Positions 8,735 to 56,580 of a stretch of DNA of 64,000 bases are shown here, piece by piece. Position numbers and translations under genes: made by a program. Each line of letters starts with the position of its first letter. Position 1 is the first letter of the stretch. The stretch covers positions 62,001-126,000 of the forward strand of contig NZ_JACJPG010000189.1 of NCBI RefSeq assembly GCF_014695955.1, given 5' to 3'. Source of the stretch: Leptolyngbya sp. FACHB-36. GTDB taxonomy: Bacteria > Cyanobacteriota > Cyanobacteriia > Leptolyngbyales > Leptolyngbyaceae. The notes beneath the pieces are model-generated. The model saw only the letters and a program-made list of their open reading frames with translations, did no database searches and had not been told where the DNA came from.

Positions 8735-10474
8735 CTAACTGCGACTTCTGAGACTAATTTCCTTGATTAAATCATCTGTGAATGATTGTGTTTTGAACTT
8801 ATCCCTATCAATTGAGCCCTTGGCAGCTTTATCTATACAAATGACTGCTTCTTGAACGAAATTTAGGCATTCATTAGAATCAGCTAAGACCTTAAGAACT
8901 TTGTCGCAATATGGCTCTATCTTTCTTTTGCTGGTGAATGGAGGACGTTCAACTCCTCCCGCCAGATATCGCAAAGCCATTAGAATATGAAAACGACAAA
9001 CTTTGTACTTTGGATCTATAACGTTCGCTCTATTGAACTGATTATCTAATACATAATAAGCACGAGCGCTTGTGTAATACGCAATAGATTCATGCTTTTC
9101 AGCAAAGATGTTTCCACCAACAACCTCCTTGTAGATATTCCCATAGTAACGGGAGGCTAAATGTGGTTGATCAAGGAACATTGCCGCAAAAGTTTTAATC
9201 TGATGAGTAATTGAAACTACTCTTCGCTTAATAACTCCTTGTCTAAATTGACCCGCTTGTCTTTCATAATATAGTGGGTCATCAATGTCCATTTTTGTGT
9301 AGTAAAGCTCCAGTTTTTTCTGGAAGTCTGATAAAGCGAGTAGCTCTTCTTTAGTAACCTCAGTTTGCCGATTACTAGCTTTGATGATATTGTTTACAAT
9401 TTCTTCCTGGGCAGCAACAACTATTTTTATAGGAATATATAGATTTTCAATTCCAGGAACGCTCTGATTCTCGAAAATAACATGGCTTGTTTGACATCCG
9501 TTAACAATTTGATAGTCATTTAATATAAGCTTCTTTCTAATTCCACTGATGGACTTAGCTACAATTGTTATCCCATTATTCAGAACTACAAATTGCTCAA
9601 TTCTGCCTGATTTTAAAGTTTTAGCAATGTCTACATTAACATCAATCTCAGGACCTTTATAGTACCTAACGTTGTCATAAAAAATAGAACTTCTTATTCT
9701 TCCGTATTCATCCTTAATTAGATTTATGAATTCCTTAAATGGTAAAACACCAATAAAAGCTTCAGTAACACCTTTTATCTCTGGCAAGGATACTCGGTCT
9801 TCAAAATCTATTTCAGCAGTTACTGTGGTCTTTGTGCTTCTATAAAGCTTATTAATCTCATCAGCCCCACAAGGAGTAAATATAACTTCTCTAAACAAGT
9901 TTTTGGAGTTATCGAGTAATTTTTCCTTTTGGTCCTCACATAATATTTTTAAGCTTGTGTCGTCATTCCATTGTCCGGTCGTAACATAATACAACTTACA
10001 AGTAGGTTTCACTTTAAGATAAACACTATTGTCGTCAAGAATAAAAGATACTAAATCTGCTTTATGTTGGATGAATTCATTGCTTGTAAGGGAGGATTTT
10101 TTATTAAAGAAGCAATCAACTCCATTAAAGAATTTAAGCAGATCACCACTATCAAATTTACTGGAAGTTTTAGCCTGAACAAATACACAAGTTAAATCCA
10201 GGGAGCCACTAACTCCTATTAATTCCTTAACTTCTTCTTTGGAATCAATCAGTCGTTCGTTTAAAAAGATAGCAATACCATCTATACCTATATCAAAGGG
10301 CAATTGACCAACAGAAACATCATCAACTTCAAATTCTTCCGAAGCATGGTATGGAAGCTCATGTGCTACTACACAGTAATTACAAAAAACTTCAAAGGCA
10401 TGAGCTTCATCAGGAATTGTCGTGCCGTTGTCCCGAAAGTAATCCTCCATTAGGCTTCTTGTAAGTCGATCCAT
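8735..10474 (-). CDS. AIPR family abortive-infection protein
   Basis: 579 residues on the minus strand, opposite to all its neighbours. The core carries the family's conserved features: NNGIT at 299-303, NGCQTS at 325-330 and ASNRQT at 366-371, followed by a helical C-terminal half. The N-terminal part has GIDGIAIFL (Asp65) and VFVQAKTS (Gln100-Lys102), a D...QxK arrangement like PD-(D/E)xK nucleases. AIPR proteins are linked to phage resistance by abortive infection in lactococci. The gene is clearly richer in A+T than the tail genes and I see no CGATCG in it, so it was probably acquired. It splits the tape measure from the hub gene. A weak ribosome site AAGGA lies about 11 bases before the ATG. 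Confidence 0.85.
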   Translation of the reverse strand: MDRLTRSLMEDYFRDNGTTIPDEAHAFEVFCNYCVVAHELPYHASEEFEVDDVSVGQLPFDIGIDGIAIFLNERLIDSKEEVKELIGVSGSLDLTCVFVQAKTSSKFDSGDLLKFFNGVDCFFNKKSSLTSNEFIQHKADLVSFILDDNSVYLKVKPTCKLYYVTTGQWNDDTSLKILCEDQKEKLLDNSKNLFREVIFTPCGADEINKLYRSTKTTVTAEIDFEDRVSLPEIKGVTEAFIGVLPFKEFINLIKDEYGRIRSSIFYDNVRYYKGPEIDVNVDIAKTLKSGRIEQFVVLNNGITIVAKSISGIRKKLILNDYQIVNGCQTSHVIFENQSVPGIENLYIPIKIVVAAQEEIVNNIIKASNRQTEVTKEELLALSDFQKKLELYYTKMDIDDPLYYERQAGQFRQGVIKRRVVSITHQIKTFAAMFLDQPHLASRYYGNIYKEVVGGNIFAEKHESIAYYTSARAYYVLDNQFNRANVIDPKYKVCRFHILMALRYLAGGVERPPFTSKRKIEPYCDKVLKVLADSNECLNFVQEAVICIDKAAKGSIDRDKFKTQSFTDDLIKEISLRSRS

Positions 10475-10978: not shown

Positions 10979-13900
10979 ATGGTCCTTACGATCGCGCCCT
11001 ACAACCCCAAAAGCAAACTCTCGGATGTAGCACCGGGAGAATCCGCCCATCCAGCAGGTGCGGGAACTATCCGATTTGATCTGCGGATATTGACACGCTA
11101 CGGCGCGGTCATTATTGACTTTGGGCAGTTAACTGATCTGTTGTCTTGGAACGACACGCTTTCAACCGAAGGAGCCAGCGGTACCTGGACGCTGAAGATG
11201 CGAGCGTCGCTGTGCAATGAAGCACTGCTGAAAAAGCTGCATCCGGGAATGGTGGTAGAGGCGTACTGCGCTCGCAACGATAACCCGTTGATTGGGGTGG
11301 TGCGAGATCCGAGCACGATCTCGCGGATTGACAGCACTCCTCCTCTACCTGAACTGGCTCAGACGGTGATTGCGCCAACGTCGATCGCTAGCGCTGCGCC
11401 TACAACATCAAGCGCGTCTGCGGGAAATCTGGGAGCCGCAGAAACTGACACCGCGTTCTATCAGAAATTGACGCAGGTGGCAGGACGGCTGGGAATGAAT
11501 CCTGAGCACCTACTGACCGCAATGCTGTATGAGTCAGCGGGAACGCTTTCCCCTTCGATTCGCGGTCCTCACGTGCCGGGGGATGGACAAGCGGTCGGAC
11601 TAATCCAATTCATGCCCTCGACTGCCAGAGGTCTAGGGACAACTGATTCAGCGCTCGCGTCAATGAATCGTGTACAGCAGTTGGACTATGTAGAGAAATA
11701 TTTTCAGCCCTACAAGGGGCGATACTCTAACTTCTACTCAGTTTACGCAACTATTCACGCTGGCAATCCTACAGCGAATCCTAACGGTTCGGACGGATAC
11801 CGCACCACAGGACAGGCAGCAAGTGAGGCGCAGTCGAGGTTTTCCAGCAAGGCTCGAAATCTGCTGCAAGGTGCAGGGGTTAATGCAGCGACAACGACTC
11901 CGATCTCTCCTTCCCCCTCACAAACTCCCACTCCCACGCCACAAATCACCCCGATCGTCGGTCCTACGGTCAAACCCAGCGAAGATCCCTACCTTGATAA
12001 ATGCCCCTACCTGCTGCTGAGAGGTGTCATCACCGACTACGGACGCAGCACTGGGGACGGGACAAGCCTCACGGTGACAGGTGAATCCTACGGCAAAATC
12101 TACAAAGATGCCTTTGTCCTCACCGACCTGAATGCTCCTGAGCTGGCGTCTACGTCGCTGGAAGTCCGCAACAGCACGATCGTTCCGCTCGGCGTTTCGC
12201 TCATCTACTACCGCCTATTGCGCGAATGGGTCGAGGGATTTTGGGGGCAAACTACAGGATGGGAGGCGCGCACCCGTCCGATCCCATTTCCACCGAACTA
12301 CCTCACCCGCATCAACAATGAAGGATCGGTGTGGGCAAACCTGCAATTCCTCGCGATCGAGGGGTTTTTCCACATCTTTGTGGATCACACCGGCGCGATC
12401 GTCTGGGAAAAGTTGCCGTGGTCCTCTCGGTCTCAATCGCTGATTGCAGGGCGCAACTGGGAAGACCTCCCTCTGCTGGAGATGCCAAGTTGGAAAATCT
12501 CCGAGTGGCACGATCGGCTTTCAGAGCAGGGGGTAACGAACTTTATTCGCTGTGTGCCGACTCAGCAGGGGATGTCAGGCGGACAAGACCCAGTGGCGCA
12601 ACCGGGACTGATTTACAACCTGGGTAGCATTCGGCAGTACGGTGGACCGACCAAGCGGGAACTGCTGTTTCCGGTCGGGACCGGGGGAGATCAGTACTAC
12701 ACCAGCGAACCACGTCGCAAGCAGCAGGCGACCATCAACAGCTTTACGGCACTGTGCTCTCTGGAGTCAATCCGTTGGTACGATCGACCCACTCAGCGTG
12801 TCGGGGTGACTGCGCGAGGTGAAGCGGCATGGCGCATCCACACCCGCATCAAGATCGCCGAAGACTGGCACTGCCCTGACGCTAAGCCTGCCGAATATTA
12901 CGTCATCGCCCGCACCCATCAACTCGATTTCACTCGCGGCAGTTGGGCGACGAATCTCGATATGGTGCGCGATCGCCGCAATCGCTATCTAGGGATTGGA
13001 GTGGGAGAGGTTCCGGTTGTGACTGGAACCGGGAACACGGTTCAATCTGTGCTGCATGAGTTTGGGGGTGGAAAATTCAAGCTGCAAGGGATTGCGGCAG
13101 ACCAGCAACGATCGGAGATTGAACGGCAAATTGCGAAAGCGAAAGCTGATCGGCAATCACAGATTCTAGGGCTACCTACTCAACCCGCTAAACCCGCAGT
13201 GGATGCTAGTCGGTTTACGACGGCTAAGGGGTTTAGTTTGTCAGGGCAGAAGGTTTCTTCCCTCAAGCAGTTCGTTGCGCCTGACTTGAAGGGACAGATT
13301 TCGGTTGCAGAGGTGCCCGCGATTCAGGTGTCACTAGTTCCTGACGAGTATTTCTGGTTCGACCGACTCAGCGGCAAGGTAGTCGCGATCGGTAATGATC
13401 CGGTGGCGTGGGCAAAACAAAACGTGGTGCCGCGATTAGGGGAAGAGTCGAAGGCGGTGACGGTAATTCCGCCAAAATCGCCTACGGGCATCACGGCTCC
13501 AACAGGTCCTGCTGCACCGTTTACACCTGTCGATCGGATCTATGTCAGCCGCCTGTACGATGAGTCGCCACCCCTAGCGTGGGACTTTACGTTGGCGCGT
13601 GGGGGAACAGCATTCAACGATCAGGTGATAACACCCGTTCCTTCGCCAATTTCTGGCACCGTTCGGTTCGCTGGGGCAAAAGGTGGCTACGGCAACGCTG
13701 TTGAAATAATCGGTAGCGATGGCGTGATCTGGTTCATGGCTCACATGACTTCAATTTCCGTCAGCCAAGGACAGCAGGTAACGCGAGGGCAGACAATCTC
13801 GATTCAGGGTTGGACAGGGAGCGTCTCCCCAAAAAACGAGGACGGGACGCATATTCACTGCGAGATTGGCAACAACAGCGTACCGCGACTACCGAGAGAA

Positions 13901-13984
13901 ACAACACGCCCGCTACTGGCAGACTATTTCCGCTTTGTCAGTGGCGGAAAATCACCGACTTACGTTGGGGGAAGCGGATTTTGA
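10979..13984 (+). CDS. Baseplate hub protein with lytic transglycosylase and M23-like domains
   Basis: 1001 residues. The N-terminal part (about 1-110) and the centre (about 330-720) resemble gp27/late-control-D type hub proteins, with strands such as GTWTLKMRASLC and an YFQP/WDRL-containing core. Inserted at about 157-290 is a lysozyme-fold lytic transglycosylase: MLYESAGTLSP with the likely catalytic Glu, then AVGLIQFMPSTARGLG and YSVYATIHAGNP. The C-terminus (about 855-980) looks like an M23 LytM peptidase: WFMAHMTSISVSQGQQV, GQTISIQGWTGS and THIHCEI. The usual first zinc-binding His of HxGxD is not seen (the segment reads PLAWDFT), so peptidase activity is doubtful. It would sit at the tail tip and cut peptidoglycan during injection. 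Pro-rich linkers at about 300-325 separate domains. Confidence 0.8.
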   Translation: MVLTIAPYNPKSKLSDVAPGESAHPAGAGTIRFDLRILTRYGAVIIDFGQLTDLLSWNDTLSTEGASGTWTLKMRASLCNEALLKKLHPGMVVEAYCARNDNPLIGVVRDPSTISRIDSTPPLPELAQTVIAPTSIASAAPTTSSASAGNLGAAETDTAFYQKLTQVAGRLGMNPEHLLTAMLYESAGTLSPSIRGPHVPGDGQAVGLIQFMPSTARGLGTTDSALASMNRVQQLDYVEKYFQPYKGRYSNFYSVYATIHAGNPTANPNGSDGYRTTGQAASEAQSRFSSKARNLLQGAGVNAATTTPISPSPSQTPTPTPQITPIVGPTVKPSEDPYLDKCPYLLLRGVITDYGRSTGDGTSLTVTGESYGKIYKDAFVLTDLNAPELASTSLEVRNSTIVPLGVSLIYYRLLREWVEGFWGQTTGWEARTRPIPFPPNYLTRINNEGSVWANLQFLAIEGFFHIFVDHTGAIVWEKLPWSSRSQSLIAGRNWEDLPLLEMPSWKISEWHDRLSEQGVTNFIRCVPTQQGMSGGQDPVAQPGLIYNLGSIRQYGGPTKRELLFPVGTGGDQYYTSEPRRKQQATINSFTALCSLESIRWYDRPTQRVGVTARGEAAWRIHTRIKIAEDWHCPDAKPAEYYVIARTHQLDFTRGSWATNLDMVRDRRNRYLGIGVGEVPVVTGTGNTVQSVLHEFGGGKFKLQGIAADQQRSEIERQIAKAKADRQSQILGLPTQPAKPAVDASRFTTAKGFSLSGQKVSSLKQFVAPDLKGQISVAEVPAIQVSLVPDEYFWFDRLSGKVVAIGNDPVAWAKQNVVPRLGEESKAVTVIPPKSPTGITAPTGPAAPFTPVDRIYVSRLYDESPPLAWDFTLARGGTAFNDQVITPVPSPISGTVRFAGAKGGYGNAVEIIGSDGVIWFMAHMTSISVSQGQQVTRGQTISIQGWTGSVSPKNEDGTHIHCEIGNNSVPRLPRETTRPLLADYFRFVSGGKSPTYVGGSGF

Positions 13985-14322: not shown

Positions 14323-14398
14323 GGGGCGGTCGCCAAGTCTGGTAAGGCTCAGAGCTCGCAATTCTGCATCACCAGTTCGAATCTGGTTCGCCCCTCCA
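14323..14398 (+). tRNA. tRNA with anticodon CGC (tRNA-Ala by code)
   Basis: A 76-base cloverleaf with encoded CCA: acceptor GGGGCGG pairs with TCGCCCC (last pair G-T), D stem GCC/GGC, anticodon stem CAGAG/TTCTG with loop CTCGCAA, and T arm ACCAG-TTCGAAT-CTGGT. T33 is present, so the anticodon is CGC, reading GCG (Ala). The acceptor has G3-C70 rather than the G3-U70 pair that marks tRNA-Ala, and the D arm looks more like tRNA-Gln (GTCGCCAAG...GGTAAGGC), so true amino acid identity is uncertain. It lies between the hub terminator and accessory genes, a possible integration site or phage-supplied tRNA. Confidence 0.85.
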
Positions 14399-14431: not shown

Positions 14432-14977
14432 ATGATGTACTGCCATAATACTGAACCCGACAACCGGTTTCAAGCCGATGCGCCCGCTGGTATACCCGTA
14501 GCTTTGCGCGTGTTGTCATCCAGTAATCAAGCACAAGAAGGTATAAGTGAGGAGCAAGGAACTCCTTTAAACTCGCTAGACCCGCTCGCTGTTTACATTC
14601 TTGAAGCTGCCCATAGATTAATTCCACCCACTGGTCAGGCAACCATCAAAGAATTCATTGATGAAGTACCAGCGGGTGAGTCAGCCATTAGAGACAGGTT
14701 GAACCTACTCGTTGGCGTTGGCAAACTGAGTTGCCTACCAGGGTCAGGGCGGAGACCAACGCTTTACTATCTTTCAAATCAAGCTGAGATTCCTAGTCCA
14801 AGCATCTTGGACAACATCGACTTGACAGAGGATGAAGTCTTACAGGTAGTTAAGGAAAAAGAAGAAGCGCTTTTAGCCGGTTTAGCTGAGATACAGAAAG
14901 AGTTGGAGGTTGTCATTCAGGATCGCGAGGCTTTAGAAAAAGCGATCGCGGTTCGCCTTAAATACTCAGTGAAGTAA
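14432..14977 (+). CDS. Hypothetical protein, winged-helix-like with C-terminal coiled coil
   Basis: 181 residues. AGGAGG stands just before tandem ATG codons at 14432 and 14435. Residues about 50-115 (PLAVYILEAAHRLIPPTGQ, then TIKEFIDEVPAGESAIRDRL and TLYYLS) look like a winged-helix DNA-binding unit, followed by a charged helix (about 140-181) that may form a coiled coil. It is cotranscribed with the next gene (12 bases apart) in the accessory insertion. A regulator of that unit is a reasonable guess, not more. Confidence 0.6.
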   Translation: MMYCHNTEPDNRFQADAPAGIPVALRVLSSSNQAQEGISEEQGTPLNSLDPLAVYILEAAHRLIPPTGQATIKEFIDEVPAGESAIRDRLNLLVGVGKLSCLPGSGRRPTLYYLSNQAEIPSPSILDNIDLTEDEVLQVVKEKEEALLAGLAEIQKELEVVIQDREALEKAIAVRLKYSVK

Positions 14978-14989
14978 GGAGTAACAAAG

Positions 14990-15895
14990 ATGAAGCGAAG
15001 CAATGTTACTCAAATGGAGCTTGAACTGAAAGTGATAACGTCTAAAGAGGTTGACGGGATTGAAATGGGTGTTTTAGACGATGGAACACCCTTCCTAACA
15101 GAAAGAGGTTTGGCTAAAGTATGCGGAGTTTCAAACAGCACTTTAGTTAAGTATGCAGATAATACTCTTGAGGGTGATGCCCTAAGAGCCACTAAAATCA
15201 GTGAACTGCTTGCTGCTCAGGGCTTTGAAGGCGATTCCCTGTTTGTCCGAACAGAGTATAAAGGCACGTCTGTTAAAGCTTATCCAGATTCAGTCTGCAT
15301 GGCGTTGCTGGAATATTACGCTTTTGAAGCTGGAAGATATTGCAACGAGACAGCTAAAAACAATTACCGCATCTTGGCTAGAAAATCACTCCGGGATTTT
15401 ATCTACCGAATGACTGGTTATGATCCCGTCAAACAAATTTTGCAGTCTTGGCAGCATTTCCATGATCGCTTACTCCTAAATCCTATTCCTGTTGGGTATT
15501 TCAGTGTTTTTCGTGAGACAGCAGACTTGGTTCTAGAATCCATCCGTAATGGACTAGAAATTGACAGCCATACTGTGCCGGATATAAGCGTAGGCAAACT
15601 GTGGAGTGAGCGATGGTTTTCAAGTGATTTAGAAAAAAAGTATGGGGAGCGAGCTAAATATCCACATCTCTACCCTGACTATTTTCCTCAGGCTGTAGCT
15701 AATGGATCAATCGATGTCTACATTTATCCTGTTTCTGTGCTGGGAGAATTCAAGCACTGGATTCAAACTGAGTATCTGCCGCAAAAGTACCCCTCATATT
15801 TGAACCGAAAAGCGAAACAGGGTGTGATCTCGGCATCAAAGGTTCCAAAGATTCTCAAGGCACTAGAGCCAATTCGATTAAATCCAGCAGGGTAA
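14990..15895 (+). CDS. BstA-like / KilA-N-P63C type phage protein
   Basis: 301 residues with AGGAGTAAC before the ATG. The N-terminus (about 20-60) has GVLDDGTPFLTERGLAKVCG followed by SNSTLVKY, a KilA-N or antirepressor-like DNA-binding unit. The C-terminal half has GYFSVFRETADLVLESI, PDISVGKLW and YPDYFPQA, ending in EYLPQKYPSYL, a conserved block that I associate with the BstA abortive-infection proteins and the P63C family. BstA proteins are prophage-encoded and protect lysogens against other phages. It sits between hub and spike genes, where only structural genes are expected. An antirepressor-like regulator is the alternative. Similarity is from memory of the motif and needs a profile search. 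Confidence 0.5.
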   Translation: MKRSNVTQMELELKVITSKEVDGIEMGVLDDGTPFLTERGLAKVCGVSNSTLVKYADNTLEGDALRATKISELLAAQGFEGDSLFVRTEYKGTSVKAYPDSVCMALLEYYAFEAGRYCNETAKNNYRILARKSLRDFIYRMTGYDPVKQILQSWQHFHDRLLLNPIPVGYFSVFRETADLVLESIRNGLEIDSHTVPDISVGKLWSERWFSSDLEKKYGERAKYPHLYPDYFPQAVANGSIDVYIYPVSVLGEFKHWIQTEYLPQKYPSYLNRKAKQGVISASKVPKILKALEPIRLNPAG

Positions 15896-16159: not shown

Positions 16160-18430
16160 ATGTTTAACGCAGGACATAGACGGGTATCACCGGGGCGAGA
16201 GTCTGTTGGCAGCGACCTCTACACGGTGCTGAGCTACAACCCGATCGAGCAAACCTGTGACCTCGCGCCTGCGTCGATCAATCAACGGGGGACACTAACT
16301 GCCGTCCCGATCGCGGCTGGATTTGGCGGGGCATGGGAGTTGCAGCAGTCTCACCGTCCTAAGGTTGCGGGATCGGTGAATCCAAAAACCTACGGCAACG
16401 TCGCGCGCGGACCGAGGTGGGGAGAGAACTACCCAATTCAACCGGGGGATATGTGCAGGGTCTGCTACATCGGAGAGTCGATGTCTGACCCAGTAATCAC
16501 CGAATTTGTTCGGTGGCGCGGGGATCTGGGCGTGCCGTGGGTGGCGAATCAGGTGTTGAGCCAACCGAACGATTACACCGAAGCAACCCCGATCGAGGAA
16601 GATGAACCCGTCGATCGCTATGACCTTCTGTTGCCGTCGGGAGCGTGGCTGCGAAGCTCGAAAAAAGGCTCCTGGACGATCGCAACGCCGCCCGTCGATC
16701 GCGCTCGCAATTTCATCACCCTCAACGCCGATGGCAGTATCAAAATCAAGGCGCGAGGTGAGAAACAATACACCATTCATCTGGAGTTTGACCCCAACAA
16801 AGAACAGGGACGGATTTGCGTTGGCAGCCTCGAAGGAGGTAGCTACCTGGAATTCAAGGACGGAGACATTACGCTACGGGCACGAAAGGCGATCAAGTTG
16901 ATGGGGCAGAGGATTGACGGCAATCTGAAGCCACAAACCTCTGGAGCGCTGGAAGTGTTGAGCAGCACTCCCTCTGCCGCGATCTCGACTCAGCAACTTT
17001 CTGAACTCGTCACGCAGGCGGCAGGGGAAGCGGTGCTGCAATCGAGTCCGGGGGTTGCAGGTAAACCGGGAGTAGTCATTGTCCGCCCTAACCGCAAGTC
17101 GCTAATTTCCAATCTGATTGCCAATCCCGCGATCGACGGAGGCTTGCGCGGGCGAATTCAGGACTTACTCCTAGATCCTGGGCAACTAAAAGCAGGTGTA
17201 CTGGACGGATTGGCGCAGCTTGGGAGAGGTGGATTTGATCCAATGGCGATCGCCTCCGGTCTAACGCGATTAGCTGGGGTGGATGCGTTGTCAGGAGGGC
17301 TGCCCGACCTCACCGGCACGCTCGATTTAACCGCGATCGCGTCGGAGTTGGGCGTACCATCCTGGATTGCGAAAGGGTTTCAGGGGTCGTCACTATCCCT
17401 GCCGTCGCTGCCCGACTTGGCGAACGTGTTGGGAGGATTGAGCGATTCGGCGCTGCTGTCACAGGTACTTCAGCAAGCGGGAAGTTATGCGATGGGGGGT
17501 GGAATGAGCGCGATCGCGGCTCGCTCACTGCTCGATGCAGGAATTTCAGAGTTGCCGTCAGGACTTAAAAATCGAATTAACCAACTGATTGATGCCGTCG
17601 ATGAAATCCCCGTTGCGACACCAAAAACAGGTGGAGGAACCGACTGGAAACCAACGATCGCTCAGCGGCTCGGAGCGCATATCCTGCGGGGAAATACGCT
17701 GCTAGGAGGTCCGGTTAACGTATTCAATTTAGAGTCGCTGAACGGGTTGGGACTTTCACCGGAAGCGCTTGGAGGAATTGCCGATGTCGCCGGAAAGATC
17801 GCGGGCTACATGGGCAATCCACACACCCTGTTAGAAGGGGAACTGCCCGCGATCGTGAATTCTGAACTTGGCAAACTGGAGGCAATTCCACCAGAAATCC
17901 GTCAGCTAATGGCGCAGTCTCCTGAGCTGATCAGCAACCTTCCTAAACTGGCGATTGCGGCACTGCCCGAACTTAAGGACTTCACCGCTCGACTGATGTG
18001 GCACGAGGATCGGCAGTGGTCGCCTGCTGAAGCGAATCTAGCCGCGCTAGTTCAGGAGGCTCCTCCAGTCGTCCGCGATGTGCTGAGCAAACTACCTCAA
18101 CCCGTATTCGATGCGCTGGGGAGTCTGCCAGTGGATCAGCTACAGAGCGTGATGGACAACCCGATCGCCGCACTGGACAAAGCAGGAACGCAACTGCTCC
18201 AGAGCGTTTTTGGCAATGCGGCTCCAGGCGCAGGAACGTTTGACATGAAGGTGTCACGGATGGCAAAGTTCAACACCCTTCCTCGCCCCTCAGAGCGCCT
18301 CAAGCCCGTCAACACGACCAGCGAGTTTCACCTACAAACGTTTGCTACCCCGATCGAGCGCGTGATCGAGTACGGCACCTTAGATATGCCTGATTACTGG
18401 GCAACACCTGATGGCGAGACAACAGCGTAG
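16160..18430 (+). CDS. Baseplate spike (gp5/VgrG-like OB-fold) protein
   Basis: 756 residues, start ATG at 16160; the ATG at 16147 gives only MAVINV and a stop. Residues about 1-125 have the look of the gp5/gpV OB-fold: DLYTVLSYNPIEQTCDLAP, then GENYPIQPGDMCRVCYIGES and DPVITEFVRW. A beta-rich middle (about 150-260) with SIKIKARGEKQYTIHLEF and GGSYLEFKDGDITLRARKAI resembles the intertwined needle. The remaining 490 residues are Leu/Gly-rich helices, unusually long for a spike, with no enzyme motif I recognise. It would cap the hub and pierce the outer membrane. The next gene starts 20 bases before its stop. Confidence 0.72.
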   Translation: MFNAGHRRVSPGRESVGSDLYTVLSYNPIEQTCDLAPASINQRGTLTAVPIAAGFGGAWELQQSHRPKVAGSVNPKTYGNVARGPRWGENYPIQPGDMCRVCYIGESMSDPVITEFVRWRGDLGVPWVANQVLSQPNDYTEATPIEEDEPVDRYDLLLPSGAWLRSSKKGSWTIATPPVDRARNFITLNADGSIKIKARGEKQYTIHLEFDPNKEQGRICVGSLEGGSYLEFKDGDITLRARKAIKLMGQRIDGNLKPQTSGALEVLSSTPSAAISTQQLSELVTQAAGEAVLQSSPGVAGKPGVVIVRPNRKSLISNLIANPAIDGGLRGRIQDLLLDPGQLKAGVLDGLAQLGRGGFDPMAIASGLTRLAGVDALSGGLPDLTGTLDLTAIASELGVPSWIAKGFQGSSLSLPSLPDLANVLGGLSDSALLSQVLQQAGSYAMGGGMSAIAARSLLDAGISELPSGLKNRINQLIDAVDEIPVATPKTGGGTDWKPTIAQRLGAHILRGNTLLGGPVNVFNLESLNGLGLSPEALGGIADVAGKIAGYMGNPHTLLEGELPAIVNSELGKLEAIPPEIRQLMAQSPELISNLPKLAIAALPELKDFTARLMWHEDRQWSPAEANLAALVQEAPPVVRDVLSKLPQPVFDALGSLPVDQLQSVMDNPIAALDKAGTQLLQSVFGNAAPGAGTFDMKVSRMAKFNTLPRPSERLKPVNTTSEFHLQTFATPIERVIEYGTLDMPDYWATPDGETTA

Positions 18431-19004
18431 TTCCACCGTCTTCCTCCGACACGACGGCAAGGAGCGCAAAGACGTATTCTTTCGCATCAACCCGATCGCC
18501 ATTCGCGTACAGCAGGGCGAGAAAGGGGCAGTGGTGGAAACCCTGGGCGGCTACTACCGAGACGTTCTGTACTCAAAAGATCCGCAGTATCAAGGACTAG
18601 CTCTGGCAGACCTGACGATCGAGGCGACAACTGGCGTTGCGTATCGTCAGGAGCTAACGGTGGCTCAGTGGATTTGGCATCACGCCAGCGATCGTAAGAA
18701 AAACGGTGCTCCGGCGGATACCTATTTTTTCGATCTGACCGAAGACGCACCGTATCAAGGTGTTGTGCGGGCAACCCAGCGAGCATATCTAATCAAAATC
18801 TCCAACTTTGCCTGGGACGACACGGTGAACTCGCCGAATGAGATTCGCTTTTCGATGCGCTGCAAGGTGCTGAGAGATTTGTTTTGGGACTTGAGTCCGC
18901 CATCTACATCCTCTGCTCCGAACCTGTCGTCGATCGCCACAGGCGTCAGCCTGCCCACGTTCAACCCCAACAGCCTTGCAGGTCTGCCAGATCTGTCAAT
19001 CTAA
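18411..19004 (+). CDS. Putative baseplate protein
   Basis: 197 residues, starting inside the end of the spike gene. It has a beta-rich fold with FFRINPIAIRVQQGEK, TLGGYYRDVLY and LTIEATTGV, and a Pro/Ser/Asn-rich C-terminal tail. Its TAA overlaps the ATG of the histidine kinase (TAATG). Position between spike and LysM/gp25-like genes suggests a baseplate inner component, but I cannot name the family. Confidence 0.6.
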   Translation: MARQQRSSTVFLRHDGKERKDVFFRINPIAIRVQQGEKGAVVETLGGYYRDVLYSKDPQYQGLALADLTIEATTGVAYRQELTVAQWIWHHASDRKKNGAPADTYFFDLTEDAPYQGVVRATQRAYLIKISNFAWDDTVNSPNEIRFSMRCKVLRDLFWDLSPPSTSSAPNLSSIATGVSLPTFNPNSLAGLPDLSI

Positions 19005-19996
19005 TGAAAGCTTTGCCTTATCTGAGCGCGATCGGTATGATTGCGCTCGCAGTTCCGCTCAACGAAATTCTGCTGCGAACCGTTGATGTTAGTGCCTCGC
19101 CACTGTATCTATCCGCTGTTGCGATCTCGGCTGTGTTGCACGGTCCAATGGTAGGGACCTGCACTGCACTACTGTCAATACCTGCTTTTCTGCTGGTCAA
19201 TCCGACCCAGCTACCGTCACTGCTCTGGCTGCTGTGTGAAGAGTTTCTGGTTTTGGGGGTTTGTTGGCAGCGACTAGCAATGCAAGAACGGGATCGGGCA
19301 CGGGTAAGACAAATTGAGGAGGCGAGTCGATCGACATCGGCTCTGTCACACACGCTGCGATCGACCGTTACGAATATTCTGATGTCGGTTCAGGCGGCTC
19401 GTCGGCTACCTGAACGAGCCGCAGAGTTTACGGCGATTCTGGAGCGCGAAAGCGGTCAACTGCTGCGGACTGTTGGCGACATCCTGACGTTGCAGCACGT
19501 AGAGAACTCTGCTCAACAGATTCAGACGGACGTGATCGATGTGAAGCCGTGGTTGGAAGGATTAGCCGCACTGTTCGGTCCCCGTCTAGAACAGAAGTCT
19601 TTGCGCCTAATTTTCGACGTGGCAATCGTGCCGCCACTGCACACAGACGCCGCTCGACTGGACTTGGTGGTGCGGGAGCTGCTAGAGAATGCAGTCAAGT
19701 ACGCGCCTGTAAATGGAGTGGTCGAGGTGCGCTGCTGGCATCAGGGAGGGCAACACGCGATCGAGGTCGGCAATCCTTCTGACATCCCGATCAGCGAAAT
19801 GCCTAAATTATTTTTGCAGTTTTACCGAGGTTCAAACGCTAGGGGAGAGTCAGGCTCTGGCTTAGGGTTGTCGATCGCTCAAACAATCCTGTCCCAGCTC
19901 AAAGGCACAATTCAAGCAGATCAGGTGTATGGATGGATTACCTTTCTAGTCAAACTGCCGCCACTCCCCTCGATGTCGCTGCCCAAATCACTATGA
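19004..19996 (+). CDS. Membrane-bound sensor histidine kinase
   Basis: 330 residues. Residues about 4-88 form three or four hydrophobic helices (IGMIALAVPLNEILL, YLSAVAISAVLHG, TALLSIPAFLLV, LLWLLCEEFLVLGV), like small DUF4118 or MASE-type membrane sensors. Then comes a HisKA-like helix pair with LSHTLRSTVTNI (His116), the N box RELLENAVKYAP at about 222-233, and the ATP lid with LFLQFYRG and GSGLGLSIAQT near 284. All kinase boxes are present, so it is probably active. Start ATG overlaps the stop of a baseplate gene (TAATG) and its own stop overlaps the next ATG (ATGA), so it is translated with structural genes. No response regulator is in the window; it may feed a host regulator. Confidence 0.85.
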   Translation: MKALPYLSAIGMIALAVPLNEILLRTVDVSASPLYLSAVAISAVLHGPMVGTCTALLSIPAFLLVNPTQLPSLLWLLCEEFLVLGVCWQRLAMQERDRARVRQIEEASRSTSALSHTLRSTVTNILMSVQAARRLPERAAEFTAILERESGQLLRTVGDILTLQHVENSAQQIQTDVIDVKPWLEGLAALFGPRLEQKSLRLIFDVAIVPPLHTDAARLDLVVRELLENAVKYAPVNGVVEVRCWHQGGQHAIEVGNPSDIPISEMPKLFLQFYRGSNARGESGSGLGLSIAQTILSQLKGTIQADQVYGWITFLVKLPPLPSMSLPKSL

Positions 19997-20331
19997 TTCT
20001 GGCAACGCTAGAGGAGCTTCCCTACGACAGGGTGGTCCTACGGGAGTCGCTTGATCAAGTCCTCCGATTGGCAGGCATTACGGATTTATCGACGTTGCAG
20101 CTTCAGAAAGCTCAAGGACGATCGGTGTTCGGAGAGTTACGCAGCTATCCGCAGGCGTCCTCCGAAGACGTAGCCCGACTTAGGCAGCAGATTGAAGCAG
20201 TGATGGCAGAACTACCGCAGATCACTGCTCCGTCCGGTCAGCAACTGCCTGGAGATTGGTCGCCCGTAACAACTCCGGCGGCAGCCATTACCATTTCTGA
20301 GACGCGATATGTCCCTCCTACAACCCGATGA
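19993..20331 (+). CDS. Small baseplate-operon protein, unknown
   Basis: 112 residues from ATG 19993, which overlaps the kinase stop as ATGA. A longer version from ATG 19933 would overlap the kinase by 64 bases, so I prefer the short start. It is largely helical (LEELPYDRVVLRESLDQVL, SEDVARLRQQIEAVMAEL) with a Pro/Thr-rich end. No family recognised. Confidence 0.6.
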   Translation: MILATLEELPYDRVVLRESLDQVLRLAGITDLSTLQLQKAQGRSVFGELRSYPQASSEDVARLRQQIEAVMAELPQITAPSGQQLPGDWSPVTTPAAAITISETRYVPPTTR

Positions 20332-20632
20332 AATCACAGTTGAAGCGCTAATGGCGGACCTGCCCATGCAGCGATCGGCGCGTCATCAACTTGAACTGCA
20401 AACGCTGTCGCTGCTAGAGGGACTGACGCTTGCAGTAAATCCGCTATTGCAGTCTGCTCCTAATCCGCAGTACGTGGTGAAAGATGGAGACAGCTTGCAG
20501 ATCGTTAGCCTGCGACTGTTTGGCGTGATCGATTACTGGCGGGCGATCGCCGAACTCAACCGCATCGACTATCCGTTCGTGGTCTATCCCGGTCGCGTGC
20601 TGCAAGTTCCAATCATTGGAAACGATGGATAA
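20309..20632 (+). CDS. LysM-domain baseplate protein
   Basis: 107 residues starting 23 bases before the upstream stop. Residues about 54-102 form a LysM unit: YVVKDGDSLQIVSLRLFG, then DYWRAIAELNRIDYP and YPGRVLQVP. Many contractile phages carry such a protein (PBSX XkdP, T4 gp53-like) that links hub and wedges or binds peptidoglycan. The 17-bp palindrome codes for its VPIIGN end, and its stop overlaps the next start by 8 bases. Confidence 0.8.
   Translation: MSLLQPDEITVEALMADLPMQRSARHQLELQTLSLLEGLTLAVNPLLQSAPNPQYVVKDGDSLQIVSLRLFGVIDYWRAIAELNRIDYPFVVYPGRVLQVPIIGNDG
20606..20622. repeat. 17-bp palindrome, copy 2
   Basis: GTTCCAATCATTGGAAA, at the junction of the LysM and gp25-like genes, ending two bases before the ATG at 20625. 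Its GGAAA arm could serve as the ribosome site. Confidence 0.9.
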
Positions 20633-21080
20633 CTTCGCCACTCACCTTGAATCCATTTTTGGAATTGATCTAGCGTTTGACGCCTCGCTCCGAGGATCAA
20701 AGGACGTGGCAGCGAATGTAGACAATACCGACTTTCTCTACAGCCCCTCGATCGTGAGCTTGAAGGAAGAGATTGAGCGACTATTCAACCTCACACCTCG
20801 CGGCTCATTCCTTGATGATCCGGACTACGGACTGGACCTCGACTGGATTGGGCAGCCGCTTAACCCGCAGGTCGCTGTCGGATTAGCAAAGGTTGAATGC
20901 CTACGGGCATTGACTCACCCTGACTTTGCAACGCGGTTTCGAGTGCGAGACCTAGCGGTGCGGTGGAATCCTACTGAGCCGAACGCCTTGAGGATCGAGG
21001 GACTGCTTGAAGTCTACGGGTTTGAAGAGGTGCCGCTAGTGCGATTCGGCCCTTACGTCCTGGAATACCTGCTGAATTAA
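20625..21080 (+). CDS. gp25-like baseplate wedge protein
   Basis: 151 residues. I take ATG 20625, after the palindrome, rather than a TTG at 20616. The sequence VSLKEEIERLFNLTPRGSFL followed by DPDYGLDLDWIGQ and a helix KVECLRALTHPDFATRF is typical of the gp25/W family, in which an EPR-like or PxYG turn fixes the wedge core. It is the usual neighbour of baseplate J. The stop TAA shares its last base with the next ATG. Confidence 0.85.
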   Translation: MDNFATHLESIFGIDLAFDASLRGSKDVAANVDNTDFLYSPSIVSLKEEIERLFNLTPRGSFLDDPDYGLDLDWIGQPLNPQVAVGLAKVECLRALTHPDFATRFRVRDLAVRWNPTEPNALRIEGLLEVYGFEEVPLVRFGPYVLEYLLN

Positions 21081-22435
21081 TGTCCAATCCCTACTTCCTT
21101 AGTTTTGAGGAAATCGTTGATCAACTGATCAGCTTCCTGCCTCCATCCTGGCGATCTCAGTTCAGCGGCAAGGTCCTCAAACGGTTGATTGTTGCCTACG
21201 CGGTCGCAACCGAGGCGCTGTACGCACTACTGGCGCGACTGCTGCGGCTGAGCATCATTGCCACTTCTGAGCGAGAGTGGCTGCGAGCGCTGGTTGCGGG
21301 TATGGCAATGGACACGTTCGTGGGCACTCCAGCCTCTGTGCTTGTGAGGTTTGAGCGGTTCACAGCCACAGAAGCGATCGTCATTCCTCAAGGAACGCAG
21401 GTTGGCGCGGTAGGCGGGCAGCAGTTTGAAACTCTACTGCCTGCGACGCTGGATGCTGGACAGACGGCGATCGATGTTAGCTGTATTGCTCTAGAGCCTG
21501 GAGTTGCAGGGAATATTGGACGCGGCGAGATTGTGAGCTTGATTACTCCGGCTCCGGGCATCGATCGCGTCGGGAACGCATTTGAGGCGAGTGGTGGCTT
21601 TGACGCCGAATCAGACAGCGAGATTAAAGCAAGACTGCCGCGCCACCTGGAATCGCTGCACCGCGCCACAATTCCAGCGACTGAGTATGCGATCGGGATT
21701 GACCGAGAACGCTTTCCCGAAGTCACCGCGTTCCTAACGCAGCGGAATTTCGGCACGCCTGGATATTTCCGAGGCATCCTCAGCGACACGACTGGGGGCG
21801 ATGCCTACCGCGCAATTCAGTGGACGCCTGTAGGGAATCAAGGAGTCTACTGGATTCCTACAGCGCTATCAGAAATTAATGGGTTAGTGTCAGCGGGTTT
21901 CCCCTGTCGGCGATTCGGCATTGTCAAACGGTCGATCGATGGGGAGGAGATTTGGGTCGTCAGCAATTTTGTTACCGAGGTAGAGCAGGGAGACTGGCGG
22001 TTTTGCCACGATCGGTCTCAGGGGCGATTGTACGCCCGTGCGGACGGACGCGACCTAAACACCCTGGACTTGACTATCTACGCGGGCGTCTTCTGGCGAG
22101 CGTTGCGGGAACTGGAGCTGAGTTGGGCAGCCAACGGCGTCTTCTGCGACGTGCTGGTGCCGTTTCTGGTGTCAGGGAATATCTCATTGACCTACACGCT
22201 GGAACCTGACTACCTTCAGCAGGACGTAGAGGCATCGCTGCGATCGACATTAACAGAATACAGCCGTTCTCTCCGGTTAGGGGAGTCTTTGCAGCTGGAG
22301 AACCTGTATGCAGTTTTAAATCGAGTGGCGGGGGCGGCGGGGGTGATTGTTGTCAGTCCAGTTGGCAACATCACGGTTCCGTCTGATCACATCTTTCGTC
22401 TTTCTGCGGTTGCAATCGATCGTCGCGCTAATTAA
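21080..22435 (+). CDS. Baseplate J-like protein
   Basis: 451 residues starting in TAATG. The N-terminal helical part (about 1-75) with YALLARLLRLSIIATSEREW is followed by VLVRFERFTATEAIVIPQGT, ALEPGVAGNIGRG and GFDAESDSEIKARL, the hallmark segments of the baseplate J/gp47 family, and a C-terminal domain with helix QDVEASLRSTLTEYSRSL. With the gp25-like and tail-protein-I-like partners it makes the wedge that triggers sheath contraction. An accessory gene separates it from protein I here. Confidence 0.88.
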   Translation: MSNPYFLSFEEIVDQLISFLPPSWRSQFSGKVLKRLIVAYAVATEALYALLARLLRLSIIATSEREWLRALVAGMAMDTFVGTPASVLVRFERFTATEAIVIPQGTQVGAVGGQQFETLLPATLDAGQTAIDVSCIALEPGVAGNIGRGEIVSLITPAPGIDRVGNAFEASGGFDAESDSEIKARLPRHLESLHRATIPATEYAIGIDRERFPEVTAFLTQRNFGTPGYFRGILSDTTGGDAYRAIQWTPVGNQGVYWIPTALSEINGLVSAGFPCRRFGIVKRSIDGEEIWVVSNFVTEVEQGDWRFCHDRSQGRLYARADGRDLNTLDLTIYAGVFWRALRELELSWAANGVFCDVLVPFLVSGNISLTYTLEPDYLQQDVEASLRSTLTEYSRSLRLGESLQLENLYAVLNRVAGAAGVIVVSPVGNITVPSDHIFRLSAVAIDRRAN

Positions 22436-22442
22436 CGAGCAC

Positions 22443-23876
22443 ATGAAATTCAAACTAGGAACCGTCCTTTACGTATGGGATGAGTCCAAACTTGCTTTAG
22501 TGAAAGCGTCCAAGAAAACGTCGTCGCCTGGACAGCTAAGCCTTTTCGAGGAACAGGAGCATCCACGCGACAATTCTGGAAAGTTCGCTCCTAAAGGGGG
22601 TGGGGAGCCGAGCCACTCTGAAGCCGAACAAGAGAAAGCCCCTTCTAAAGGGGGTGAGTTAAAAATTCCCTCTGGAACCGAGCAGGGAATCGCCAAAGTT
22701 TTTCTACAAAAATGCAAAGATGCTGAGCATATCAAGCTATCTAAGGAAGAAGCTGAGTACGAAGGTTTAGACCACAAACACCCTGGCGCTCACTGGGAGG
22801 AGAAGGGAGTTTTTGATTCCTTGCTAGATGCCTATCGCAACGGAGGAGATCGGGCGGTAGGAGAGGCTTTTGTAAAAAACCTAGATTTCGCTGACGGAGA
22901 CGAACAGGTCGGAAGAATTCTGGCGAAACTATCATTTGATTCAGCTAATTGGGACGTGCTGAGTCGGTACGCAACCTCCCGATTAAAGGGAGAGCAGATG
23001 TCAGTAGAAGACGCCGATCCAGCAACACAGATTCTCGCTGAATACATAGATTCTAATATTGATTCTGGAGTCGAGGGAGAAGGCTCCGGCGATAAGGGAT
23101 GGGAGAAGGAATCCCAAAGATATAGAGAACAGGCTATGGAATCTTTCTCCTCAGCAGAAAGTATTCAGCAATGGGCAAACAAAGAAAAGCCGTGGAAGAT
23201 CGCTAATGATGAGACAGGTACGGGGGTTACACTCGCTGAACTATCTCTAAAAAACCTCGATACTGATGAGATCGGTAAAATCATCGCCGGACAGTTCAAG
23301 CTACCTGATGCACTTTCTCGCGAGAAGCAAACAGGGACAAAGGGGGCATTCGTAGTCCCTCCAGAGCAATCAAACAGCAGAAGAGACGCGGATGCATGGT
23401 TCTACTTTGAAAAGCTAGTAGATTGGGATGCCGTTGCCGATCACGCACTCGGCAAACAGAACTCCGACAAATCCGCCCAAAGCAAGCCTACACAGATGGC
23501 GATGCAAGCAATTTCATCTTCGCTTGCTCAGGATGACGGAGAACTGGCTGAGAAGCTAAAGAACTACAAGCCAAGCAGAATTGTAAATATTGAGCTGAGG
23601 GACAAAATAAAAGCGCTTCCAGAAATTCGGGACTTTATGGAACGTGGGGAGGGTAAAGCGATGAAAGAAAACCTAGATCAGAATCCCCTTTTCCAAGAAC
23701 GAATTAAAAAAGTAATTCAGAACTCTTTAAAGTCAGGGGATTCGGAACTAAACGACCTTGTTTGGGAACTGAAAATAGATTGGCGAGATCCCAACTGGAA
23801 GCAACAGACCGCTAAGCGGTTGACTCAGAACTTTAACGTCAGCCCTGACCAAATCAAGCAGTTAGGCTTGTCTTAA
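22443..23876 (+). CDS. Unrecognised 477-aa protein inserted between baseplate genes
   Basis: The start ATG 22443 comes 7 bases after the baseplate J stop. The N-terminus has SPGQLSLFEEQEHPRDNSGK and FAPKGGGEP, a short tag often seen at the ends of phage minor head or morphogenesis proteins. The rest is charged and helical, with QVGRILAKLSFDSANWDVL, DADAWFYFEKLVDWDAV and the final DLVWELKIDWRDP. Its DNA is richer in A+T and in Lys/Glu codons than the baseplate genes on both sides, and it lies where P2-like phages have J directly followed by I. It could be cargo (effector or defence) or an unusual virion protein. Its stop overlaps the next ATG. Confidence 0.7.
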   Translation: MKFKLGTVLYVWDESKLALVKASKKTSSPGQLSLFEEQEHPRDNSGKFAPKGGGEPSHSEAEQEKAPSKGGELKIPSGTEQGIAKVFLQKCKDAEHIKLSKEEAEYEGLDHKHPGAHWEEKGVFDSLLDAYRNGGDRAVGEAFVKNLDFADGDEQVGRILAKLSFDSANWDVLSRYATSRLKGEQMSVEDADPATQILAEYIDSNIDSGVEGEGSGDKGWEKESQRYREQAMESFSSAESIQQWANKEKPWKIANDETGTGVTLAELSLKNLDTDEIGKIIAGQFKLPDALSREKQTGTKGAFVVPPEQSNSRRDADAWFYFEKLVDWDAVADHALGKQNSDKSAQSKPTQMAMQAISSSLAQDDGELAEKLKNYKPSRIVNIELRDKIKALPEIRDFMERGEGKAMKENLDQNPLFQERIKKVIQNSLKSGDSELNDLVWELKIDWRDPNWKQQTAKRLTQNFNVSPDQIKQLGLS

Positions 23877-55578: not shown

Positions 55579-56580
55579 ATGGTATCCCAGAACGCCAAAA
55601 CCAGCAAAACGACAAACGCTGATTCCGTCAGAGCCTACCTGGTAGAAATTGGACAAATCGATCTACTAACTAAAAATAGGGAAGTTGAGCTAGGCAAGCA
55701 AATTCATCAGGCACAGCCCTTATGGACGCTGCGCGAGGAGATGGAGAAAACACTCCAGCGCACTCCCACCCGTGAAGAATGGCAGGCTGCCAGCGAACTT
55801 CCCGCTAAAGAGTTCGATCGACGACTACATATTGGCAATAGAGCTAGGGAAAAGCTAATTGAGGCAAACCTGCGCCTCGTTGTCTCGATTGCCAAGAAAT
55901 ACTTGAATCGCGGCGTATCGTTTCAGGACCTGATTCAAGAGGGGTCGATCGGACTGATGCGGGCAGCGGAAAAGTTTGATTTTACAAAGAACTGCAAGTT
56001 CTCGACCTACGCGCACTGGTGGATTCGTCAAGCGGTGACGCGGGCAATCTCGCAGCAGTCCCGCACAGTTCGACTGCCTGTACATTTGTGGGAGTCCGTT
56101 GGCAAAATCCGCAAAGCCAGCAGACAGTTTCATGCTGAGAACAATCGATACCCAACCGAGCGTGAGCTTGCCGAATTACTGGAGTGGTCGGTTGATCGAG
56201 TGCGCCAGATTCGTCAGCACAGCCAGCCAATTGTCAGTCTAAACACCAAGATCGGGCAAGACGAGGACACCGAATTGCTAGACATACAGGCAGCCTCGAT
56301 CAAGCCGATCGACGGCGGGCTGCAACTTGATTGGATGCGTGAAGAAATTGCGGCGCGAATCGAGTGGGCTGTCAAAGACGACCATTCCAGCGAAAAGGCA
56401 CGAAATATAGAGATGTTTCGACTGCGATCTGGACTGGTAGATGGAAAAGGCTGGAAGCTTAGCGAGATCGGCGAGGCTTACGGAGTAAGTCGAGAACGGG
56501 TGCGCCAGATTTGCCAAAAGATCGATCGCCAACTTCGACAAATTGCCAGGACTCAAGAACTGGACACCCATTCAATTTGA
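55579..56580 (+). CDS. Sigma-70 family RNA polymerase sigma factor (group 2-like)
   Basis: 333 residues. Region 1.2 (DSVRAYLVEIGQIDLLT), region 2 (LRLVVSIAKKYLNRGVSFQD, then LIQEGSIGLMRAAEKFD and FSTYAHWWIRQAVTRAI), region 3 (RYPTERELAELLEW) and region 4 (LSEIGEAYGVSRERVRQIC) are all present, so it is a full primary-like sigma without the long region 1.1. Cyanobacteria have several such group 2 factors, and this one resembles them. In a phage early region it would redirect host RNA polymerase, perhaps to the repeated tail promoters. The next gene begins five bases after its stop. Confidence 0.9.
   Translation: MVSQNAKTSKTTNADSVRAYLVEIGQIDLLTKNREVELGKQIHQAQPLWTLREEMEKTLQRTPTREEWQAASELPAKEFDRRLHIGNRAREKLIEANLRLVVSIAKKYLNRGVSFQDLIQEGSIGLMRAAEKFDFTKNCKFSTYAHWWIRQAVTRAISQQSRTVRLPVHLWESVGKIRKASRQFHAENNRYPTERELAELLEWSVDRVRQIRQHSQPIVSLNTKIGQDEDTELLDIQAASIKPIDGGLQLDWMREEIAARIEWAVKDDHSSEKARNIEMFRLRSGLVDGKGWKLSEIGEAYGVSRERVRQICQKIDRQLRQIARTQELDTHSI

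Follow-up and report, generated by a model that had tools for sequence, protein, structure and literature searches.

A diverged orphan histidine kinase gene in the linker of a baseplate gene of a Leptolyngbya prophage

Phage-borne sensor kinases have rarely been described. One of them is AgrC of the Clostridioides difficile phage phiCDHM1, an orphan histidine kinase on a temperate myovirus, which is encoded with agrD and agrB near the endolysin gene, has a recognisable host origin and lacks its cognate regulator on the phage (PMC3901668). Morons and other prophage cargo, including BstA and AbiU, are accessory genes among structural genes and vary between relatives. At the level of the protein, two further groups are relevant here: the KdpD-type DUF4118 kinases with their multi-helix N-terminus, and cyanobacterial HisKA kinases of the type 'SHELRTPIANMKMAI...DLLDLQRLE...GWTTF' (e.g. 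the 754-aa proteins L038-L042), which have a separate upstream region.

Here we describe a membrane histidine kinase gene in a window of 64,000 nt from Leptolyngbya sp. FACHB-36 (GCF_014695955.1), which corresponds to positions 62,001-126,000 of the forward strand of contig NZ_JACJPG010000189.1 (C100 in Table 1; 130,314 bases). In contrast to agrC of phiCDHM1, this gene lies inside a baseplate gene, has no close donor and is flanked by baseplate genes, with no agrB or agrD beside it. It also differs from morons, since a consensus scan detected no autonomous promoter or terminator, its composition is typical, it appears to be translationally coupled and it interrupts a gene. The likeness to the cyanobacterial kinases is confined to a core of approximately 36% identity with a shared Asn-type G1-box, GGTGLGL/GSGLGL and GW(T/I)TF motifs, while the phage protein has membrane helices with no sensor domain detected and has lost the Glu and Pro of the H-box. 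Phage-borne orphan histidine kinases are already known, but our search of the open-access literature brought up none that is encoded among phage tail genes, and this placement within a tail-structural gene is apparently new.

A split baseplate gene in a prophage at a tRNA-His gene

The contig is rich in HIP1 sites (70 versus 2.3 expected, an enrichment of approximately 30-fold), in keeping with a cyanobacterial genome. A complete tRNA-His gene lies near its beginning, and the 3' part of this gene together with the adjoining bases is repeated exactly over 56 nt near the other end, just beyond an integrase gene (Table 1). The element between the repeats comprises 129,979 bp and carries portal, capsid, terminase, sheath, hub, baseplate and integrase genes. 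Since att repeats at a tRNA gene, an integrase and genes for head and tail occur together, we consider it a temperate phage with a contractile tail, integrated as an apparently complete prophage. It also encodes a sigma-70-type RNA polymerase sigma factor (window positions 55579-56580; phrog_351, 3.5e-71), which is a candidate for late-gene control.

Table 1. Features of the prophage and of related sequences (window positions unless a contig is named)
Feature	Position	Strand	Evidence or remark
AbiU (AIPR family), tape-measure/hub slot	8735..10474	-	PADLOC AbiU 1.5e-121, PF10592 1.7e-41
Baseplate hub, lytic-transglycosylase-like region and M23 peptidase	10979..13984	+	
tRNA-Ala(CGC) gene, hub/spike slot	14323-14398		
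Uncharacterised ORF, hub/spike slot	14432-14977		
BstA abortive-infection protein, hub/spike slot	14990..15895	+	phrog_6287 2e-92, PADLOC BstA 2e-113
Spike-like protein	16160..18430	+	synteny and homology to relatives only
Gene X N-terminal half, baseplate-cluster protein	18411..19004	+	52% homologue in L016
Membrane histidine kinase, 330 aa (P0001)	19004..19996	+	ORF, Pfam, hydropathy
Gene X C-terminal half	19933..20331	+	homologue alignments
LysM-domain baseplate protein	20309..20632	+	PF01476, phrog_8272; 40-43% in relatives
gp25-like baseplate wedge protein	20616..21080	+	weak, phrog_43 E=2.7e-4; 48-55% in relatives
Baseplate J-like wedge protein	21080..22435	+	PF04865 7.9e-21; 46-53% in relatives
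Leader-motif cargo ORF, J/I slot	22443..23876	+	leader 'LVKASKKTSSPGQLSLFEEQEHPRDNSGKF'; same leader type in relatives' cargo ORFs
Further leader-type proteins	L016:1-543; L030:6839-7963; L031:4157-4960; C100:35727-42218		
'LTSPPYY'-motif ORF, putative DNA methyltransferase	L031:2619-3410; L032:2026-2904; L034:576-1367; L035:2361-3152		by motif only
tRNA-His(GTG) gene, complete	C100:199-272		
att repeats, 56 nt, exact	C100:223-278; C100:130202-130257		tRNA-His 3' part and adjoining bases
Integrase	C100:128974-130068	-	second att repeat just beyond

Scans with an alignment of baseplate J led to six related viral contigs (L030-L035), in which the order hub, spike, X, LysM, gp25, J, I and fibre is common. 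In three of them (L030, L031 and L034) gene X was read directly as one fused ORF of 397 aa, and the same spacing in the remaining three is compatible with a fused X. Because the two neighbours of the kinase gene correspond to this single ORF, comparison with the fused form places the kinase as an interruption of gene X in its linker. The N-terminal half is 40-42% identical to the N part of the fused protein, and the linker segments on either side of the kinase together have about the length seen in the fused protein. The kinase is absent from all six viral contigs; some sequence may be missing from these records, although the site itself is present in them. In another cyanobacterial bin (L016), X is also cut at the same place, and the ORF which follows encodes an unrelated cargo protein with the leader 'LVKAAKKPSPGQLDLF'. 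No convincing flanking repeats of an insertion event were found at the kinase. A binning or assembly artefact was rejected, since the ORFs overlap and run on without a break and the contig has att repeats at both ends.

The relatives of gene X were reached by the alignment-based scans, while single-sequence searches (phage records, IMG/VR with the window protein, and genome contigs) gave no match. Foldseek yielded a mere hint of baseplate proteins for X, and the AlphaFold model of fused X was too poor for use (pLDDT 42). For the spike-like protein upstream of X, no Pfam or PHROG match was obtained.

The initial sequence-only reading had proposed that the kinase gene overlaps both structural neighbours, by TAATG upstream and ATGA downstream. 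The upstream overlap stands: the stop codon of the N-terminal half of X and the start codon of the kinase are joined as TAATG, a junction that recurs in L016. The downstream one has to be revised. When read from ATG 19933, the protein aligns with homologues from L022 and the viral contigs beginning at residue 10-12 (BLASTP 4e-8 and 4e-4; scores above all 500 shuffles). Since this homology begins ahead of the Met codon at 19993, the site of ATGA, 19933 is most likely the start codon, and the overlap with the 3' end of the kinase gene would thus be approximately 64 nt. No clear ribosome-binding site was seen ahead of the kinase ATG, which would be compatible with re-initiation without proving it. 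A consensus scan gave five promoter-like sites versus 4.5 expected, which is not above chance, and no terminator-like site after the kinase gene. The proposed translational coupling of the kinase within the wedge cluster of this contractile-tailed (pro)phage is probable.

Domains, active site and origin of the kinase

The kinase ORF is intact, with 330 codons uninterrupted by a stop or frameshift. Its HisKA domain (PF00512, residues 110-167, E 7.5e-7; 29.5 bits versus a cut-off of 26.9) contains the phosphoacceptor H116, and its HATPase_c domain (PF02518, residues 215-319, E 3.1e-17, 63.4 bits) is also above the curated Pfam cut-off. Hydropathy predicts three to four membrane helices within residues 1-92 (helices span 4-92). 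The description as a membrane-type histidine kinase with three or four helices is thus supported. The multi-helix N-terminus recalls that of the KdpD-type kinases, but the match to DUF4118 (PF13493, residues 6-62, E=0.0068) reaches 16.6 bits versus a cut-off of 28.4; no Usp or KdpD N-terminal domain was found, and a defined periplasmic sensor domain was not detected. The AlphaFold model of the kinase alone was too poor for use (pLDDT 43). With a GC content of 54.1% and a GC3 of 0.56, the gene resembles its structural neighbours and is not atypical in composition.

It had also been stated that all catalytic boxes are present. This holds for the N-, F- and G2-boxes (N229, FYR and GSGLGL), but not for the H-box, which reads S-H116-T117-L-R-S120-T121. 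In comparison to 40 cyanobacterial relatives, Thr117 takes the place of Glu at H+1 (39/40), so that no acidic residue stands beside the phosphoacceptor His, and Thr121 takes that of the H-box Pro (40/40); position H+4 is Ser120, where Thr is usual. The Asn-type G1-box is the norm of the subfamily (37/40). In CpxA, the H+1 Glu acts as the general base (PMC3904827; also PMC7005713), while in GHKL ATPases this role belongs to the position equivalent to Glu225 of the N-box (PMC3904827), and Glu225 is present in the phage kinase. Due to the replacement of both the H+1 Glu and the H-box Pro by Thr, the autokinase activity is likely to be weak or absent. Phosphatase activity of histidine kinases usually requires Thr or Asn at H+4, and with Ser120 at this position it must be regarded as uncertain in the phage protein.

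The closest kinase cores, with approximately 36% identity, are cyanobacterial, and none of them is linked to the membrane part of the phage kinase. The best match in the own genome was 35% identical, and the best one in 390 genomes of the same class was 36% identical and restricted to the core. In the tree, the phage kinase forms a long branch (1.99 changes/site) of unsure position beside cyanobacterial kinases. Recent capture from a host was rejected based on these values. The first interpretation had named, as signs of a recent random capture, the lack of the kinase in other phages combined with a nearly identical host gene; the former was observed in the collections searched and the latter was not, so that a recent random capture is unsupported. 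The low core identity and the long branch would fit an old capture or fast evolution.

Regarding the statement that no described phage is known with a sensor kinase in the wedge cluster, 50,697 phage records contained nothing specific, only distant core matches of 24-30%, many of them in records resembling bacterial contamination; IMG/VR likewise gave nothing specific, within the limits of pattern scans, which are not exhaustive. Together with the six viral contigs, this agrees with the statement. A response regulator is not encoded on the element either, to which none of the 88 REC-domain places in the genome belongs. Therefore, any partner of the kinase would be a host protein. A signal to a host regulator, as originally suggested, is conceivable, but the proposed reporting of infection or envelope stress found no support.

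Function of the kinase

We favour, with a probability of roughly 0.5, the explanation that the protein is an orphan, diverged cargo kinase which acts on host response regulators as a phosphatase or competitor. It would be accessory cargo of the tRNA-His-integrated cyanobacterial prophage, placed in the linker of the two-domain gene X and co-translated with the late tail genes, and would thus presumably be expressed late. Its product would enter the cell membrane during lysogeny or after induction. The exchange of Glu by Thr at H+1 and of Pro by Thr should weaken autophosphorylation, so that the protein would most likely dephosphorylate host response regulators or compete with their own kinases. 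The split of X, the different cargo at the corresponding junction of L016, the variable slots of the tail module (see below), the delimitation of the prophage, the composition-matched GC3, the long-branched core of cyanobacterial type and the lack of REC domains on the element support this explanation, and because of the altered H-box a phosphatase or competitor is preferred over a strong kinase. There are, however, points against it. Some activity may persist even without an acidic residue at H+1, given that Glu225 is present; Ser120 is not the Thr or Asn usual in phosphatases; and there is no close homologue by which purifying selection on the sensor part could be recognised.

The first of these points leads to a possible but clearly less probable alternative, in which the protein is an active sensor kinase despite its altered H-box, the role of the base having passed to a different residue, for example Glu225, and senses the membrane late in infection and triggers a stress or envelope response of the host, in line with the first interpretation. 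The intact ORF, His116, the conserved N-, F- and G2-boxes, the membrane helices and the co-translation with late genes are in line with this. It is opposed by the loss of two residues that are practically invariant in the relatives, and by the lack of a regulator on the element, of a defined periplasmic sensor domain and of conservation in related phages.

Degeneration of the H-box, the long branch and the absence from relatives could also mean that a captured host kinase is decaying in the X linker as a non-functional passenger, kept open only by read-through into the C-terminal half of X. We consider this unlikely, since a decaying gene is hard to reconcile with 330 open codons, with the conservation seen in the N-, F- and G2-boxes and with a codon composition matched to the module; moreover, coupling of the C-terminal half by inserted DNA needs no full kinase ORF.

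Cargo slots of the tail module

Close relatives lack the kinase gene at the corresponding position, and in this respect it resembles a moron. Because the corresponding junction in L016 holds other cargo, and because AbiU, BstA and a further cargo ORF are likewise found among the tail genes, the kinase site fits a recurrent cargo slot and not a conserved component of the baseplate programme. In place of AbiU in the tape-measure/hub slot, the relatives have the putative DNA methyltransferase (Table 1) and other ORFs; in the J/I slot they have different leader-motif ORFs or nothing. The location of BstA in a tail module is unusual, because published bstA loci are usually found downstream of the prophage repressor (PMC8585504).

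The presence of AbiU and BstA in the same module raises the question of whether the kinase serves prophage defence or superinfection control, sensing an incoming phage at the membrane and signalling to host regulators. This is improbable: AbiU (GC 35%, GC3 0.28) and BstA (GC 43%, GC3 0.38) are low in GC and separately arranged, whereas the kinase gene is coupled to late genes and matched in composition, and PADLOC gave for the kinase only a weak HATPase match to the candidate family PDC-M43B.

The comparison with the relatives shows that the baseplate protein tolerates splitting at its linker, and that exchangeable cargo sites at this and further joints of the tail module hold anti-phage genes (AbiU, BstA) and a signalling protein. 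Such slots provide a rule for locating host-manipulating genes in uncultured cyanophages. It is far more speculative, and in our opinion improbable, that the kinase in the split gene links tail production to host signalling and that the X slot is a dedicated exchange site of this phage family for host-manipulating genes; if true, it would represent a phage-encoded checkpoint or late-infection signal which reads the membrane and retunes two-component pathways of the host.

Inside the prophage boundary, beside the integrase (C100:126720-128923), there is a group consisting of a MarR-like regulator, a Rieske/VanA-type oxygenase and a third metabolic ORF, which is possibly lysogenic-conversion cargo. 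Finally, otherwise different cargo and polyvalent proteins, including the J/I-slot ORF of the window and the further ones listed in Table 1, have in common a short N-terminal leader of the form 'M-x-Y-x-L-x-G...(G)IVLRKAxKRxxPGQLxLF'. This leader could serve all of them as a signal for packaging or targeting.
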